22,753 bases of DNA, taken from the IMG/VR virus record IMGVR_UViG_3300048922_000176, positions 1-22,753 of that record; one strand, 5' to 3'. The translations under genes and the position numbers were made by a program. The notes under the pieces are model-generated. The model saw only the letters and a program-made list of their open reading frames with translations. It was not told the origin of the DNA and did no database searches. Origin of the DNA: a virus. This document shows, piece after piece, positions 4,306-8,978 of the stretch. Every line of letters starts with the position of its first letter. The stretch's first letter is position 1.

Positions 4306-5895
4306 CTAGAACTGGATCGTGCGCAGATTCGCTTCGCCGCGCGGGGTTCCCGCCTGGATCACACGCGGTGCCGGCGGTGCCGGCGTGGACTTCTTCGGCG
4401 ACGCCTCGGACTTGAGCACGCCCCACAGCGCCCACGTCACCGCCTGCGCGATCGTGATCGGCTTCGTCGGGTCGGACTGCTCCCATGTCCGACCTCCGCG
4501 AGGGAAGTTGCGGGTGGTGGCGAATTCCAGCGACTTGGTCACTTCGGCCTGATCGCGGTGGGGCACCATTCCGGCGTTCACCCACTCGATGAACAGAGCG
4601 TGCGCAGCGGCAATCTCATCGACCGTCATGGCGATGTACTTGATCTTCGCCTTGTCGAGTGCGGCGACCACGGCGACGGCGTTCTTCGGATCCAGGACGA
4701 CCGTGACGCGGCCGTACTCCGCCTTCAGCTTCTTCAGCATGGGAGCTACCCACATCGTTCCGCTCTGTGACCAGTGGTGCTCCACGGCGATGCGATCGTC
4801 TCCTTGGCGAACAGCCTTGCCGATCGTCGTAGCACCACCGCCAGCGGTAAGCGCCAACGCGAGGATGACCCCTTTGCCCTGCACGGATGCGGTCGAGTCA
4901 ACCTTCTCTTTCCACATATCGAGGTCGAGATCCGACAACGCCTCGACGACTTCAGCGCGCCGGGAGGGCCAGATCGACAGGCGTTGACGAGCGAACGCTT
5001 CCGGGCTCGTCTGGCCCATGCGATTCCAGGCGTCCTGCACGGTCTTCCACGCAAGGCGGATGCCGAGACCCGGGTTCCCCTGACGCCACACCTCGGGGTC
5101 GCCGAGATCGATCTTCGCGGCGGTTTCCGGATCGTCCGACCCCACCGGGGTGTGCTCAATCCAGCCCGTTCGATCGAGCCCCCCGGAGCGTCCGCGATCG
5201 CGGAGGCCCTCGAAATATTCGCCGTCCTGATCCTCTTTCGGGACGGTGCCCGTGAAGAGCACCTGCAGGTTGGGACTGGCATCCGACGCCGGGAGAAGAG
5301 CCTCGAGGATGGTCAGCGGCGAGTGCTGCGCCTCGTCGATGATCAGGACATCGAAGGAGACGCCGACGCCTGCCGCGCCGGTGCGCGTGAAGAACACGAG
5401 GCGGTTGCCGTTCTTCAGCTCGATCGCCATGTTGCCGTTGCCGGTCGAAATTCCGGTGATGCCCTGGGCGGTCTGCTTCCCGCCGCCGACCAGCTCGGCG
5501 CGGAGGATCGGAGAGGCGAGAATGATGCGGCGGGCGCGTCGGAATGCCTCTCGCGCCGTCGGCCCTTCGTGTGCCGTGTGGCCGATGAGCTTCGGCGCGC
5601 CGTCCTCGCGAGGCCACAAGTACAGATGCGCCAACTCGTACGGGAGCAGGATGTTGCCCTTGCCCTGCTGGCGCGAGACGAGGATGCCGAACTCGGTCGC
5701 CGCCCACTGCCCGTCCTCGTCGACGGAAGCGATCGCCTCGAGCGCACCCTCCTGCCACGGATCGCACACGATGTTCGCGAGGTCGCAGATGTCGAGCACG
5801 TCATCGACGAGCGTGTCGGCCCTACTGAGCGGAAGCGCCCTGACCCGAGGTTCTTGCAGCCCGAGCAGCTCGGGCTTGGGCGAGTTGATCGGCAA
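4306..5895 (-). CDS. Terminase large subunit (529 aa), TTG start
   Basis: The ATPase domain has a Walker A-like SRQQGKGN (residues 74-81) and Walker B VLIIDEAQ (183-190), followed by VLFTGTVP (212-219), the coupling motif. The nuclease half follows the linker: the second acidic motif VVLDPKN (399-405) and a late Asp475 before PITIAQAVTWAL are present. The first nuclease strand reads VILALALTA (343-351) and lacks the usual Asp. Start: TTG at 5895 has AAGGAG 7 bases upstream, within the small subunit gene, giving a 74-base overlap; no ATG is better placed. The protein drives DNA into the portal and, with the small subunit and probably the HNH protein, cuts concatemers. Confidence 0.92.
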   Translation of the reverse strand: MPINSPKPELLGLQEPRVRALPLSRADTLVDDVLDICDLANIVCDPWQEGALEAIASVDEDGQWAATEFGILVSRQQGKGNILLPYELAHLYLWPREDGAPKLIGHTAHEGPTAREAFRRARRIILASPILRAELVGGGKQTAQGITGISTGNGNMAIELKNGNRLVFFTRTGAAGVGVSFDVLIIDEAQHSPLTILEALLPASDASPNLQVLFTGTVPKEDQDGEYFEGLRDRGRSGGLDRTGWIEHTPVGSDDPETAAKIDLGDPEVWRQGNPGLGIRLAWKTVQDAWNRMGQTSPEAFARQRLSIWPSRRAEVVEALSDLDLDMWKEKVDSTASVQGKGVILALALTAGGGATTIGKAVRQGDDRIAVEHHWSQSGTMWVAPMLKKLKAEYGRVTVVLDPKNAVAVVAALDKAKIKYIAMTVDEIAAAHALFIEWVNAGMVPHRDQAEVTKSLEFATTRNFPRGGRTWEQSDPTKPITIAQAVTWALWGVLKSEASPKKSTPAPPAPRVIQAGTPRGEANLRTIQF

Positions 5896-6621: not shown

Positions 6622-6927
6622 CTATGTGGCGGCCCACACCTCTGGGGCCGCGTTGTCCCCCTTCCGGGCGTTGCAGTCTCGGTGCATGGGCACGAGCACC
6701 TGGCCGACGAGCCGGCCACCGTTCGCGAGCGCGTTGTCGTGGTCGGCGGTGAAGCTGCGCTTGTGGGTGGGTGGGAGGGTCGTGTCGATCTGCTCGCCGC
6801 ATCCCCAGCCCGACGTGGAGCCGTATCCGCATGGGAGGTTGTGTGCGTGCGTACGGCGCTTCAGCGCGGCCTGCGCGCGACGGTAGGCACGATGGCCCTT
6901 CCCATCGCGGATGCTGCGACTGCTCAC
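6622..6927 (-). CDS. HNH endonuclease next to the terminase genes
   Basis: A 101-residue protein with CGYGSTSGWGCG (a possible metal-binding cysteine pair) and then FTADHDNALANGG...LVPMHRDCNARKGD, the beta-beta-alpha metal HNH motif with the DH pair, the central Asn and the final HxxCN. In many HK97-like siphoviruses an HNH protein beside the terminase stimulates the specific DNA cut at packaging. The frame is open to 7065, but the GTG at 6927 is preferred because it overlaps the stop of the preceding 43-residue ORF (GTGA), with GAGG about 13 bases upstream. Residues before it translate as arginine/cysteine-rich noise and overlap that ORF. Confidence 0.85.
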   Translation of the reverse strand: MSSRSIRDGKGHRAYRRAQAALKRRTHAHNLPCGYGSTSGWGCGEQIDTTLPPTHKRSFTADHDNALANGGRLVGQVLVPMHRDCNARKGDNAAPEVWAAT

Positions 6928-7055
6928 GACCGCTTCACCTCGGCGATAGCGCCGATGCACCCCAGGGCGCACCCAGCCGCGACGGCAGCAGTCCACGCCC
7001 ACGCAGGGATCGCGGCAACGACGGCGCCAAGGAAGTCGAGCAGGTAGTCGGTCAC
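6924..7055 (-). CDS. Tiny single-span membrane protein (43 aa)
   Basis: The translation is MTDYLLDFLGAVVAAIPAW, then AWTAAVAAGCALGCIGAI and the basic tail AEVKRS: one or two hydrophobic helices with a short charged end. The start is GTG at 7055 with GGGGAG 9 bases upstream, and the stop overlaps the HNH start (GTGA). It is too short for an automatic caller, but the hydrophobic pattern, ribosome-binding site and overlap all support it. Its position in the late operon, just before terminase, would suit a holin-like or membrane-anchored accessory protein; nothing in the sequence proves that. Confidence 0.6.
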   Translation of the reverse strand: MTDYLLDFLGAVVAAIPAWAWTAAVAAGCALGCIGAIAEVKRS

Positions 7056-7057
7056 GG

Positions 7058-7144
7058 TCAGTCACTCCCCCGCACGATCGTCTCGCCGTCGTCTTCCGAC
7101 ACCTGTCCAGTAGTGGACACCTCGGGGCGATCGGGAGTGCTCAC
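7058..7144 (-). CDS. Very small acidic ORF (28 aa) carrying a palindrome copy
   Basis: MSTPDRPEVSTTGQVSEDD followed by GETIVRGSD. GTG start at 7144 overlaps the stop of the preceding ORF (GTGA), and its stop is 2 bases before the next start. It has no recognisable domain. The codons for EVSTTGQ contain palindrome copy 2 (7104-7119), so the DNA may be conserved for the site rather than for the peptide. I keep it because both junctions fit the packing of the operon, but it may be only a translated spacer. Confidence 0.4.
   Translation of the reverse strand: MSTPDRPEVSTTGQVSEDDGETIVRGSD
7104..7119. promoter_or_regulatory. Palindrome TGTCCAGTAGTGGACA (copy 2 of 3)
   Basis: Same 16-bp palindrome as at 6530 and 18732, differing only in the two central bases. 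It lies within the 28-residue ORF and is followed by ACCTCGG, also found after copy 3. Confidence 0.5.
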
Positions 7145-7289: not shown

Positions 7290-7643
7290 TCAGCCGCGCG
7301 TCGGCCAGGCGAAGCGGCGGTGCCCCTCGCCTGCGCTTACAGAGGTCACCCAGAGCGTGTCGTTGCCGTCGAGGAAGACCTGCCCGTTTACCGACGACTC
7401 GGGCGTCGTGCCCCACGTCTTGACGATCAGCATGGGCAGCACGTCACCGGCGTTGGCTGGGTTGCCGGCGTGCACCTGGAAGCCGGTCGGCTTCTTCGCG
7501 ATGCGGGGGTCGTTGTAGGGGTTCGCCTGGTAAGCGAGGCGGTCGGCACGACGACGGTTGATCGCCTCGGCGTCGCTCTCAGAGAGCGTGTACAGCACGA
7601 TGCGTCCGACGGTCGGGATGGGGTTCTGGGTGGTGTTGGACAT
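7290..7643 (-). CDS. Conserved phage protein (117 aa), unknown function
   Basis: It reads PTVGRIVLYTLSESDAEAIN near the N-terminus and DVLPMLIVKTWG, VNGQVFLDGNDTLWVTSV and FAWP near the end. This arrangement is widespread in tailed phages of many hosts (short proteins opening with IGRIVHYV-like segments and ending with a tryptophan-proline motif), always without known function. ATG at 7643 has AAGGAG 8 bases upstream, the strongest Shine-Dalgarno in this area. It is the first gene after the structured gene-free region and the terminator, so it probably opens the leftward operon that leads into the HNH and terminase genes. Confidence 0.85.
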   Translation of the reverse strand: MSNTTQNPIPTVGRIVLYTLSESDAEAINRRRADRLAYQANPYNDPRIAKKPTGFQVHAGNPANAGDVLPMLIVKTWGTTPESSVNGQVFLDGNDTLWVTSVSAGEGHRRFAWPTRG

Positions 7644-8050
7644 GGTACGACTCCTTCGAGAGCTTGATGCGGTCGGTACTCAACCTCGCGATGGCGCGAG
7701 GAAGTCTTTTGCCGCGAGCATCCGGGGTCTCGCCCACACCCGGATGCCCGCGCTTCACGATTGAGTGAGCCGTGGAGTAGGCGTGTGGCGACGCCTCGTT
7801 CTACGTTTGGAATCCCGAGCAGGGGCGCCGGCTATAGGCCTGAGGCCAGGGCCGACGGTGGTTCCGCCGCGACGCGGACCCCTGCTCGGGAAGACAGCGT
7901 CCCGACAGCCCATCACCGCTCCGACATGCACGTCAGCCTGGCGTGTCGACGACGCGGGCGCGGGCGAAGGGATGTGAGCGTGTGGTGTCGGGACGAGCCC
8001 CTCGGCGAAGAGCACCAACTCCGAGGGAAGAGAATGCACCCAGACATGAC
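7644..8050. ncRNA. Candidate structured RNA or structured leader (about 400 nt)
   Basis: No credible ORF exists here, yet the stretch is a chain of strong stems. (1) 7684-7690/7695-7701, 7 bp. (2) 7713-7726/7739-7752, 13 pairs with one mismatch. (3) 7779-7784/7791-7796, 6 bp. (4) 7814-7825/7879-7890, 12 bp, continuing as CGC/GCG and enclosing two smaller hairpins (7829-7854 and 7856-7869), a three-way junction. (5) 7898-7907/7986-7995, 10 bp, continuing inward and enclosing hairpin 7922-7948. (6) 7999-8005/8021-8027, 7 bp. On the plus strand this RNA would end at the 8051-8080 terminator; on the minus strand it would be the leader of the gene at 7643. I cannot assign it to a known RNA family or fix its strand. 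Confidence 0.55.
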
Positions 8051-8080
8051 GAAAGCCCCGCCGGGTGGGGCGGGGCTTTC
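8051..8080. terminator. Intrinsic terminator hairpin (bidirectional)
   Basis: GAAAGCCCCGCC (8051-8062) pairs perfectly with GGCGGGGCTTTC (8069-8080) around a 6-base loop. The A-run and T-run at the stem ends make it work in both directions. It follows the stop of the leftward gene ending at 8157 by about 76 bases and precedes the structured region. Confidence 0.85.
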
Positions 8081-8106
8081 GTAGAGTCAGTGGTTGTGCA
8101 AGGCAC

Positions 8107-8474: not shown

Positions 8475-8515
8475 ACTCCCACTTCCTCATGCCATCTGGT
8501 CTCCACGGTGGTCAC
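8471..8515 (-). CDS. Bridging mini-ORF (14 codons), possible coupling peptide
   Basis: GTG at 8515 overlaps the stop of the cysteine-rich ORF (GTGA) and its own TGA overlaps the ATG at 8474 (ATGA). The peptide would be MTTVETRWHEEVGV. It may serve only to carry ribosomes across the gap. It could also be chance. Confidence 0.3.
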   Translation of the reverse strand: MTTVETRWHEEVGV

Positions 8516-8670
8516 GACGTACCCCCAGACGACGGAACACTCGGTCGCGGATGGACAGGGCAGTCATGAGGTCGGACGCCGCACACGCAGACGAGAGTGA
8601 CGTGCGCTCCGCATCCGCACCAGGCGTGCGAGCAGTCCCAGACGCAGGCGCAGCGTGTGGCCATCGTCAT
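8512..8670 (-). CDS. Cysteine-rich small protein (52 aa), probable zinc binder
   Basis: MTMATRCACVWDCSHAWCGC is followed by GAHVTLVCVCGVRPHDCP: eight cysteines and three histidines in about 35 residues, suited to one or two zinc sites. The C-terminus PSVPSSGGTS is nearly identical to that of the preceding gene, because a 25-bp stretch (8521-8545) is repeated exactly at 8676-8700. ATG at 8670 overlaps the upstream stop (ATGA). The open frame extends to 8709, but that part overlaps the previous gene. Probably a small DNA- or RNA-binding or protein-contact module; function unknown. Confidence 0.6.
   Translation of the reverse strand: MTMATRCACVWDCSHAWCGCGAHVTLVCVCGVRPHDCPVHPRPSVPSSGGTS
8521..8545. 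repeat. 25-bp direct repeat, copy 1 (gene 3' end)
   Basis: Identical to 8676-8700. It encodes the tail PSVPSSGG of the cysteine-rich ORF. Confidence 0.9.
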
Positions 8671-8978
8671 GATGCACCCCCAGACGACGGAACACTCGGT
8701 TCGTGACACACGCCGTCGTGGTGCACCTCCGCGCGCTTCGACCGCTCCACGAGGTCGCGCGCCTTCTCGTCACTAACGCTCTCGCGAGCCACCACCGAGT
8801 CCGCGTCGCCGAACGACGAACGATCAATCAGGCCGTTGGTACGCTCGGCGTGCATCAGCTTGGCTACGGTCCGGAGGGTGTCGCGCACCCCTTCGCCGTA
8901 GGAGTCGGGCGCGGGATTGGCGTATACGGGCAAAGCCAGCGTCCTTTCGACCCACGCCAACGTGTCGTTCTCAGGCAT
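8667..8978 (-). CDS. Hypothetical phage protein (103 aa)
   Basis: MPENDTLAWVERTLALPVYA, then a helical region (EGVRDTLRTVAKLMHAERTN) and a charged helix (SDEKARDLVERSKRAEV). ATG at 8978 has GGAGG about 6 bases upstream and shares one base with the stop of the preceding gene (TGATG). The C-terminal PSVPSSGGAS comes from the 25-bp repeat (copy 2). Upstream open frame is arginine-rich shadow. No known domain seen; small helical proteins of this kind are common in actinophage accessory regions. Confidence 0.7.
   Translation of the reverse strand: MPENDTLAWVERTLALPVYANPAPDSYGEGVRDTLRTVAKLMHAERTNGLIDRSSFGDADSVVARESVSDEKARDLVERSKRAEVHHDGVCHEPSVPSSGGAS
8676..8700. repeat. 25-bp direct repeat, copy 2 (gene 3' end)
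   Basis: Identical to 8521-8545, at the 3' end of the adjacent gene, in the same codon phase. Confidence 0.9.

Follow-up and report, generated by a model that had tools for sequence, protein, structure and literature searches.

What is encoded at positions 7684-8030 of this viral DNA, a stretch that an initial annotation read as free of genes and as a chain of strong stems, and hence as a candidate large structured RNA? We followed up this reading in the window, i.e., the whole stretch of 22,753 nucleotides analysed (IMG/VR record IMGVR_UViG_3300048922_000176), and in loci of other phages.

Folding and gene context of the locus

The stems named between 7684 and 8030 are present in the sequence. 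Three mechanical open reading frames, of 94, 107, and 70 aa, cross the stretch, and a Pfam search of the three gave zero matches; for practical purposes, as had been claimed, the stretch does not code for protein. Folding of both strands, which had been suggested as a check, showed 7684-8030 to be more stable than 100 dinucleotide shuffles, with a minimum free energy z of -3.57 on the plus strand and -4.10 on the minus strand, and among 20 window tiles compared, 7701-8047 had the most extreme minus-strand value (z -4.9). The bulk of this folding signal comes from the first of the two branched arms originally described, 7814-7890 (z -5.1 minus, -3.9 plus). The second, 7898-7995, is near chance (z -1.7 minus, -2.0 plus); no homologue of it was found, and it is probably a GC-rich palindrome or a competing hairpin.

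Two further features of the window were observed along the way. Tile 1-347, downstream of the major head gene, is the second most stable on the minus strand (z -3.6) and contains a palindromic hairpin at 204-227, and a 35-nt direct repeat, 91% identical with a spacing of 155, is found at 8511-8545 and 8666-8700.

The packaging operon of this actinophage runs on the minus strand in the order major head, scaffold, protease, portal, TerL, HNH, and then phrog_19300 (Table 1). The symmetric hairpin on the other side of the element is likely the terminator of the upstream minus-strand genes. The RNA is not linked to the gene that follows it: relatives of phrog_19300 are encoded in 80 loci, and nhmmer and blastn searches upstream of these found the RNA only in L003, a contig 100% identical to the window over the compared part, and nowhere else, with L004 retaining just the final stretch ahead of the phrog_19300 gene. 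Finding the RNA through relatives of this gene was rejected as an approach, L003 being the sole carrier.

Table 1. Coordinates of the features of the window discussed in the text.
Feature	Position	Strand	Details
Major head gene	308-1225	minus	
Terminase large subunit (TerL)	4306-5895	minus	
HNH endonuclease	6622-7065	minus	
phrog_19300	7290-7643	minus	first gene downstream of the RNA element
Terminator-like hairpin with T run	7684-7701	plus	
P1 3' strand	7766-7777	minus	CUCCACGGCUCA; best partner 7901-7912
Conserved core	7774-7802	minus	joining strand AGAACGA, hairpin P3, UA, first half of P1 (CUCC)
Hairpin P3	7779-7796	minus	AGGCGU-CGCCAC-ACGCCU, loop CGNNAC; pair probability 0.89-1.0
Inner arm	7814-7890	minus	12-bp stem CCCGAGCAGGGG/CCCCUGCUCGGG, branched top; z -5.1
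Second arm of the initial annotation	7898-7995	minus	
Candidate P1 5' strand	7901-7912	minus	UGGGCUGUCGGG; 11/12 pairs, one C-C mismatch
Symmetric GC hairpin	8049-8082		

A core shared by unrelated phages

A distant blastn search of phage records gave matches in 34 records of unrelated phages, nearly all of them, among the matches listed, to the same 30-base part, and a shorter query with a looser limit matched 49 phage records. The matched phages include those of Arthrobacter, Microbacterium, Rhodococcus, Stenotrophomonas, Acinetobacter, Aeromonas, Escherichia, Erwinia, and Pseudomonas, and the matches lie mostly outside annotated genes. Non-coding sites with the core occur in phages of Actinobacteria, Proteobacteria, and Gram-positive bacteria. 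Two patterns scanned through IMG/VR found 57 stretches with one and at least 119 with the other. At least 179 sites were collected, of which 142 are distinct and 139 have enough upstream sequence. The working set is a lower bound, consisting of the 116 of these 139 sites that have a genuine-looking joining strand, with the window itself left out; among the 23 sites set aside, L216, L217, L226, and L262 may be real.

A genome scan returned 32 pattern matches, where about 7 are expected by chance on an arithmetic estimate (18 fixed bases, even composition); 16 of the 32 are without the flanking joining sequence, and one match, L153, is too near a contig end for this to be assessed. In E. coli, 937 of the 5426 complete genomes match some part of the element region of phage CUS-3, with 80% or more of the query covered in 115; of the 20 matches listed, 19 have no annotated feature beneath them. 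No match was found in plasmids, and the DLP12 and Qin stretches of K-12 are without the core.

The conserved fold

The core hairpin P3, together with its conserved flanks, sits at a three-way junction. In alignment A1, composed of 46 type-A relatives, the fold has nine pairs in the closing stem P1, five in P2, and five in P4, in addition to P3 and to a three-pair hairpin whose loop pairs downstream to form a small pseudoknot. The relatives were taken from 49 type-A sites already passing the P1/P2 test, so the pairing in P1 and P2 is partly selected and that in P4, the 27-38 hairpin, and the pseudoknot is unselected; read in this way, pairing is kept in 93.7% of 1422 cells versus 77.9% when shuffled, 246 cells versus 80 are changed on both sides, and covariation is 0.476 versus 0.181, with none of 500 shuffles reaching 0.476. 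Slid versions of the pairing give a covariation of at most 0.103. Compensatory changes occur in P1, P2, P4, and the 3-bp hairpin inside the pseudoknot. In a separate count on 54 sequences of types A and B, largely the same as those in A1, no variation was seen in the four inner pairs of P1, whereas up to six standard pair types occur in its six outer pairs. The innermost P3 pair across the 116 sites is U-A in 61, A-G in 34, C-G in 20, and A-U in one. A scan for P1 and P2 in the 139 distinct sites found 77 that beat 20 shuffles each and 62 that do not.

The family has a conserved RNA fold, and the first idea of a structured, non-coding RNA region is borne out by folding and by family homology together. 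Homologues with compensatory changes, proposed at the outset as a search, are abundant for the RNA family; the large arms of the window have no such homologue. The extent first proposed, about 350 nt, does not agree with the relatives, which are only about 130-210 nt in total and mostly 130-170 nt.

The copy in the window

The core of the window, 7774-7802 on the minus strand, matches the family pattern ACGA-GGCGN-CGNNAC-NCGCC-UA, and 29-31 nt of it are identical in L084, L099, L126, L129, L132, L137, and L144. Covariance model R1 matches the window at 7768-7874 on the minus strand with 33 bits (E 1.6e-6; the runner-up has E 0.023), and the alignment shows that this score comes from the core alone. 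Among the window's own stems, the small hairpin 7779-7796 is the only one conserved elsewhere. The CUCCA found in the P1 3' strand is common among relatives. Pairing of this strand with 7901-7912 would yield an RNA of 147 nt (7766-7912), a typical length for the family, with the strong arm 7814-7890 as its inner domain; a rival partner is 7998-8006, GCCGAGGGG. The strong arm occupies the place of the family's exchangeable inner domain, and no homologue of it was found outside the same phage. A pattern built for the joining strand of the window found, in the viral collection, only the near-identical contig L141/L003, and this part thus rests on one sequence.

That the stretch holds a member of the phage RNA family is very probable. 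This copy may be a functional, though divergent, member or else a decayed relic, the latter being considered because its own P1 and P2 do not beat shuffles (joint score 28.1 versus a shuffle maximum of 37.7, not significant).

Strand and tRNA setting

The initial annotation had left the choice between the strands to be made. Within 1.5 kb, tRNA or tmRNA genes are found at 41 of the 116 sites, compared with 11 of 193 tiles taken at random from these loci (p 3e-11). At all 41, the nearest such gene is codirectional with the element; 75 sites have no tRNA within this distance, some of the stretches being short. Extending the distance to 4 kb gives 42 sites, at which none of 181 tRNA/tmRNA genes is antisense. 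In addition, the A1 stems contain 91 G-U cells versus 21 A-C cells. From the tRNA direction and the G-U excess, the functional strand is that corresponding to the minus strand of the window. The plus strand, our first reading of the 30-nt match, is ruled out by the same two observations.

The element precedes all tRNAs at 15 of these 42 sites, lies between them at 13, and follows all of them at 14, a placement more in keeping with an RNA gene than with a leader element. Elsewhere, the copy in E. coli phage CUS-3 is located between Q and S, and that in Aeromonas phage 62AhydR11PP upstream of TerS.

A modular architecture with a tRNA-like outer domain

The two stems of the junction other than P3 carry interchangeable parts, which may be inner domain A or B, another domain, or a tRNA-like RNA, and the module may also occur on its own. 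The 116 sites fall into several classes: 50 have an open P1 and inner domain A, 12 inner domain B, and 3 another inner domain; 17 have a tRNA-like outer domain, 5 are permuted, 7 have a significant P1/P2 with other ends, and 22 are unclassified. The tRNA-like outer domain is composed of a seven-pair acceptor, a D-arm-like segment, a UAAUCA-like linker, and a T-arm, with P1 occupying the position of the anticodon arm. A scan for this domain found it in 19 of the 116 sites versus 6 of 348 shuffles, and 17 of the 19 lie outside the CUCC group; the two CUCC-group matches, L116 and L131, were discounted as chance. In the permuted form, found at 5 of the 116 sites and in none of 580 shuffles, P1 closes 3' of P3 over a loop ending in UAAUCA plus one base. 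By eye, the copies in L225, L240, and L251 enclose a tRNA-like domain inside P2.

The exchange of modules can be seen most directly in Enterococcus phages with nearly identical flanks, in which the anticodon position is taken by the core module (L204), by nothing (phiFL2A, phiFL3A), or by another RNA (VEsP-1), and Enterococcus phage 113 has yet another insert within that tRNA-like frame. In phiFL2A (L267) and phiFL3A (L268), the tRNA-like RNA at ~1640-1710 in the late leader is about 56 nt long, with acceptor, D-arm, and T-arm and with the anticodon arm missing; in phiFL2A this domain without core lies between ArpU and the terminase. The inserts of VEsP-1 (L269, ~1640-1850) and phage 113 (L271, ~1400-1560) sit without the core in the tRNA-like frame, and a search of Rfam at E 0.1 gave no match for either.

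Comparison with known RNAs

No credible match to Rfam 15 was obtained for the window, whether at gathering score or with E values up to 10; at gathering score, the elements of 20 loci had only tRNA matches nearby that were weak or separate, and a search of L108 gave no match. The family fits no known RNA family tested, and we did not find a description of it in the open-access literature, which is weak evidence of absence; it may be new, though perhaps already described in other literature.

Closest in habit are GOLLD and ROOL, structured phage RNAs which, according to PMC12286853, are of unknown function and often near tRNA islands, GOLLD often exceeding 800 nt. The preference for tRNA islands is common to them and the new family; both are, however, much larger than the new element, and neither the window nor any element in the 20 loci gave a gathering-score match to GOLLD (RF02032) or ROOL. 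A separate GOLLD RNA (206 bits) does occur at L225:1814-2183, on the same strand and near the tRNA array of the element there.

tmRNA shares with the family a tRNA-like domain that carries a large RNA at the anticodon position. No tmRNA (RF00023) match was found at the elements themselves, the only matches being at separate places in L084 and L271. The one in L084 (Stenotrophomonas phage Jojan60), at 2370-2452 on the minus strand and just downstream of the element, is an 83-nt mini-tmRNA (61.8 bits) with a tRNA-like domain ending in CCA and no room for a tag region. In the tRNA genes at L084 2644-3158, the record annotates four tRNAs on the strand opposite to the ARAGORN and Rfam calls. Bacterial Y RNAs (YrlA) are an example of tRNA mimicry by non-coding RNAs borne by bacteria or phages, and are similar in this respect; none was matched among the Rfam results for the window and the 20 loci. 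Stable RNAs C and D of phage T4, for which we know of no function, resemble the family as small stable RNAs adjoining a phage tRNA cluster by annotation, but lack the core pattern.

No group I intron was matched in Rfam at the window or the searched loci, and on inspection P1 joins directly to the UAAUCA linker and the T-arm, so that joining of exons would give no anticodon stem. In the leader of Listeria phage B025 (L270:1135-1708), an rliG-like RNA, a tRNA-like/core RNA, and mcrA RNA are found in a row. The B025 core has a variant loop, ACGAGGCG, at L270:1507, and is overlapped by the annotated gp64. The rliG match is below its gathering score; rliG and mcrA flank the tRNA-like/core RNA and differ from it in sequence and place, and the accessible text of the Listeria sRNA paper (PMC3911899) does not name rliG. 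The Pas sRNAs were considered as the identity of the family and rejected, since those described in the available part of PMC13192938 are other, terminator-ended RNAs. No match was recognised among the structured RNAs of the human microbiome in the main text of PMC8040213.

Possible function

What, then, might such an RNA do? In the explanation we prefer, the RNA would be transcribed with the late operon or the tRNA array, excised in the manner of a tRNA, and build up in stable form during the late lytic phase. The core would dock in trans on a universally conserved host machine, and the exchangeable part would serve as its payload. Docking in trans on a universal machine appears most likely because the core is near-constant across host phyla and the rest is exchanged, and the tRNA setting favours translation or tRNA processing as the most plausible partner. 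Taken as a whole, this picture of a processed, tRNA-gene-like, stable lytic-phase RNA docking on a host translation or tRNA factor is tentative and falls somewhat short of being probable.

Of the two roles suggested at the outset, a stand-alone RNA agrees with the RNA-gene-like placement, and an antitermination-like leader may apply to this locus but fits the family poorly. As a cis-acting leader, the nascent RNA would modify RNA polymerase or its factors and permit read-through of the long late operon or an untranslated tRNA array, in the manner of the putRNA of HK022, a structured RNA of a phage transcript that acts in cis on RNA polymerase (PMC9378689). The new family shares with putRNA its being a structured RNA of phages. 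It is leader-like in some of them, since it precedes late or packaging genes in the window, in CUS-3, and in Aeromonas 62AhydR11PP, and RNA polymerase would be a universal target. It differs in lying after or between tRNAs at 27 of the 42 sites (after all of them in 14, between them in 13), and the tRNA-like outer domain has no obvious use in antitermination. We consider this alternative unlikely as an account of the family.

Rather more doubtful is a decoy, in which a tRNA-like RNA with an exchangeable arm would soak up host nucleases that attack the anticodon or the variable loop. The exchange of the arm within a constant tRNA-like frame in the Enterococcus phages agrees with such a role, and a phage tRNA is described as countering Septu in PMC13096335. 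However, the most conserved part is the core, which resembles no recognised tRNA, and many copies are without the tRNA-like domain.

Catalytic processing is a further reading, and to us an improbable one: the element would be a candidate junction ribozyme cutting the transcript of the tRNA array or the leader. The combination of conserved joining strands at a three-way junction with variable arms and circular permutation is a pattern known from the hammerhead, but neither this nor any other known self-cleaving ribozyme had an Rfam match in the window or the searched loci. Most copies are 130-170 nt, longer than the 50-80 nt that would be expected for self-cleaving ribozymes according to PMC10085705; furthermore, only the 22-nt hairpin and its flanks are universal, and a cleavage site is not evident. 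Finally, a site acting at the DNA level (cos, pac, or att) or plain GC palindromes, to which the position of some copies near genome ends or ahead of the terminase might point, is very improbable and already contradicted for the family by the compensatory changes, the G-U excess, the strand bias relative to tRNAs, and the copies within tRNA arrays of large phages.

Returning to the preferred explanation, we regard it as nearly an even matter whether the family is an undescribed class of phage RNA found across several phyla, with a permutable junction core and swappable domains, often set where a tRNA would have its anticodon arm, and with a universal component of host translation or RNA processing as its target in trans. 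The RNA is short, and some of the phages that carry it are named and can be cultured (E. coli CUS-3, Listeria B025, and Arthrobacter Kumotta). Its function is directly testable in the Enterococcus phages, some of which have the core, some lack it, and some carry a different insert in the tRNA-like frame. Few structured phage RNAs are widely conserved, and those that are, such as GOLLD and ROOL, usually mark an unknown process.
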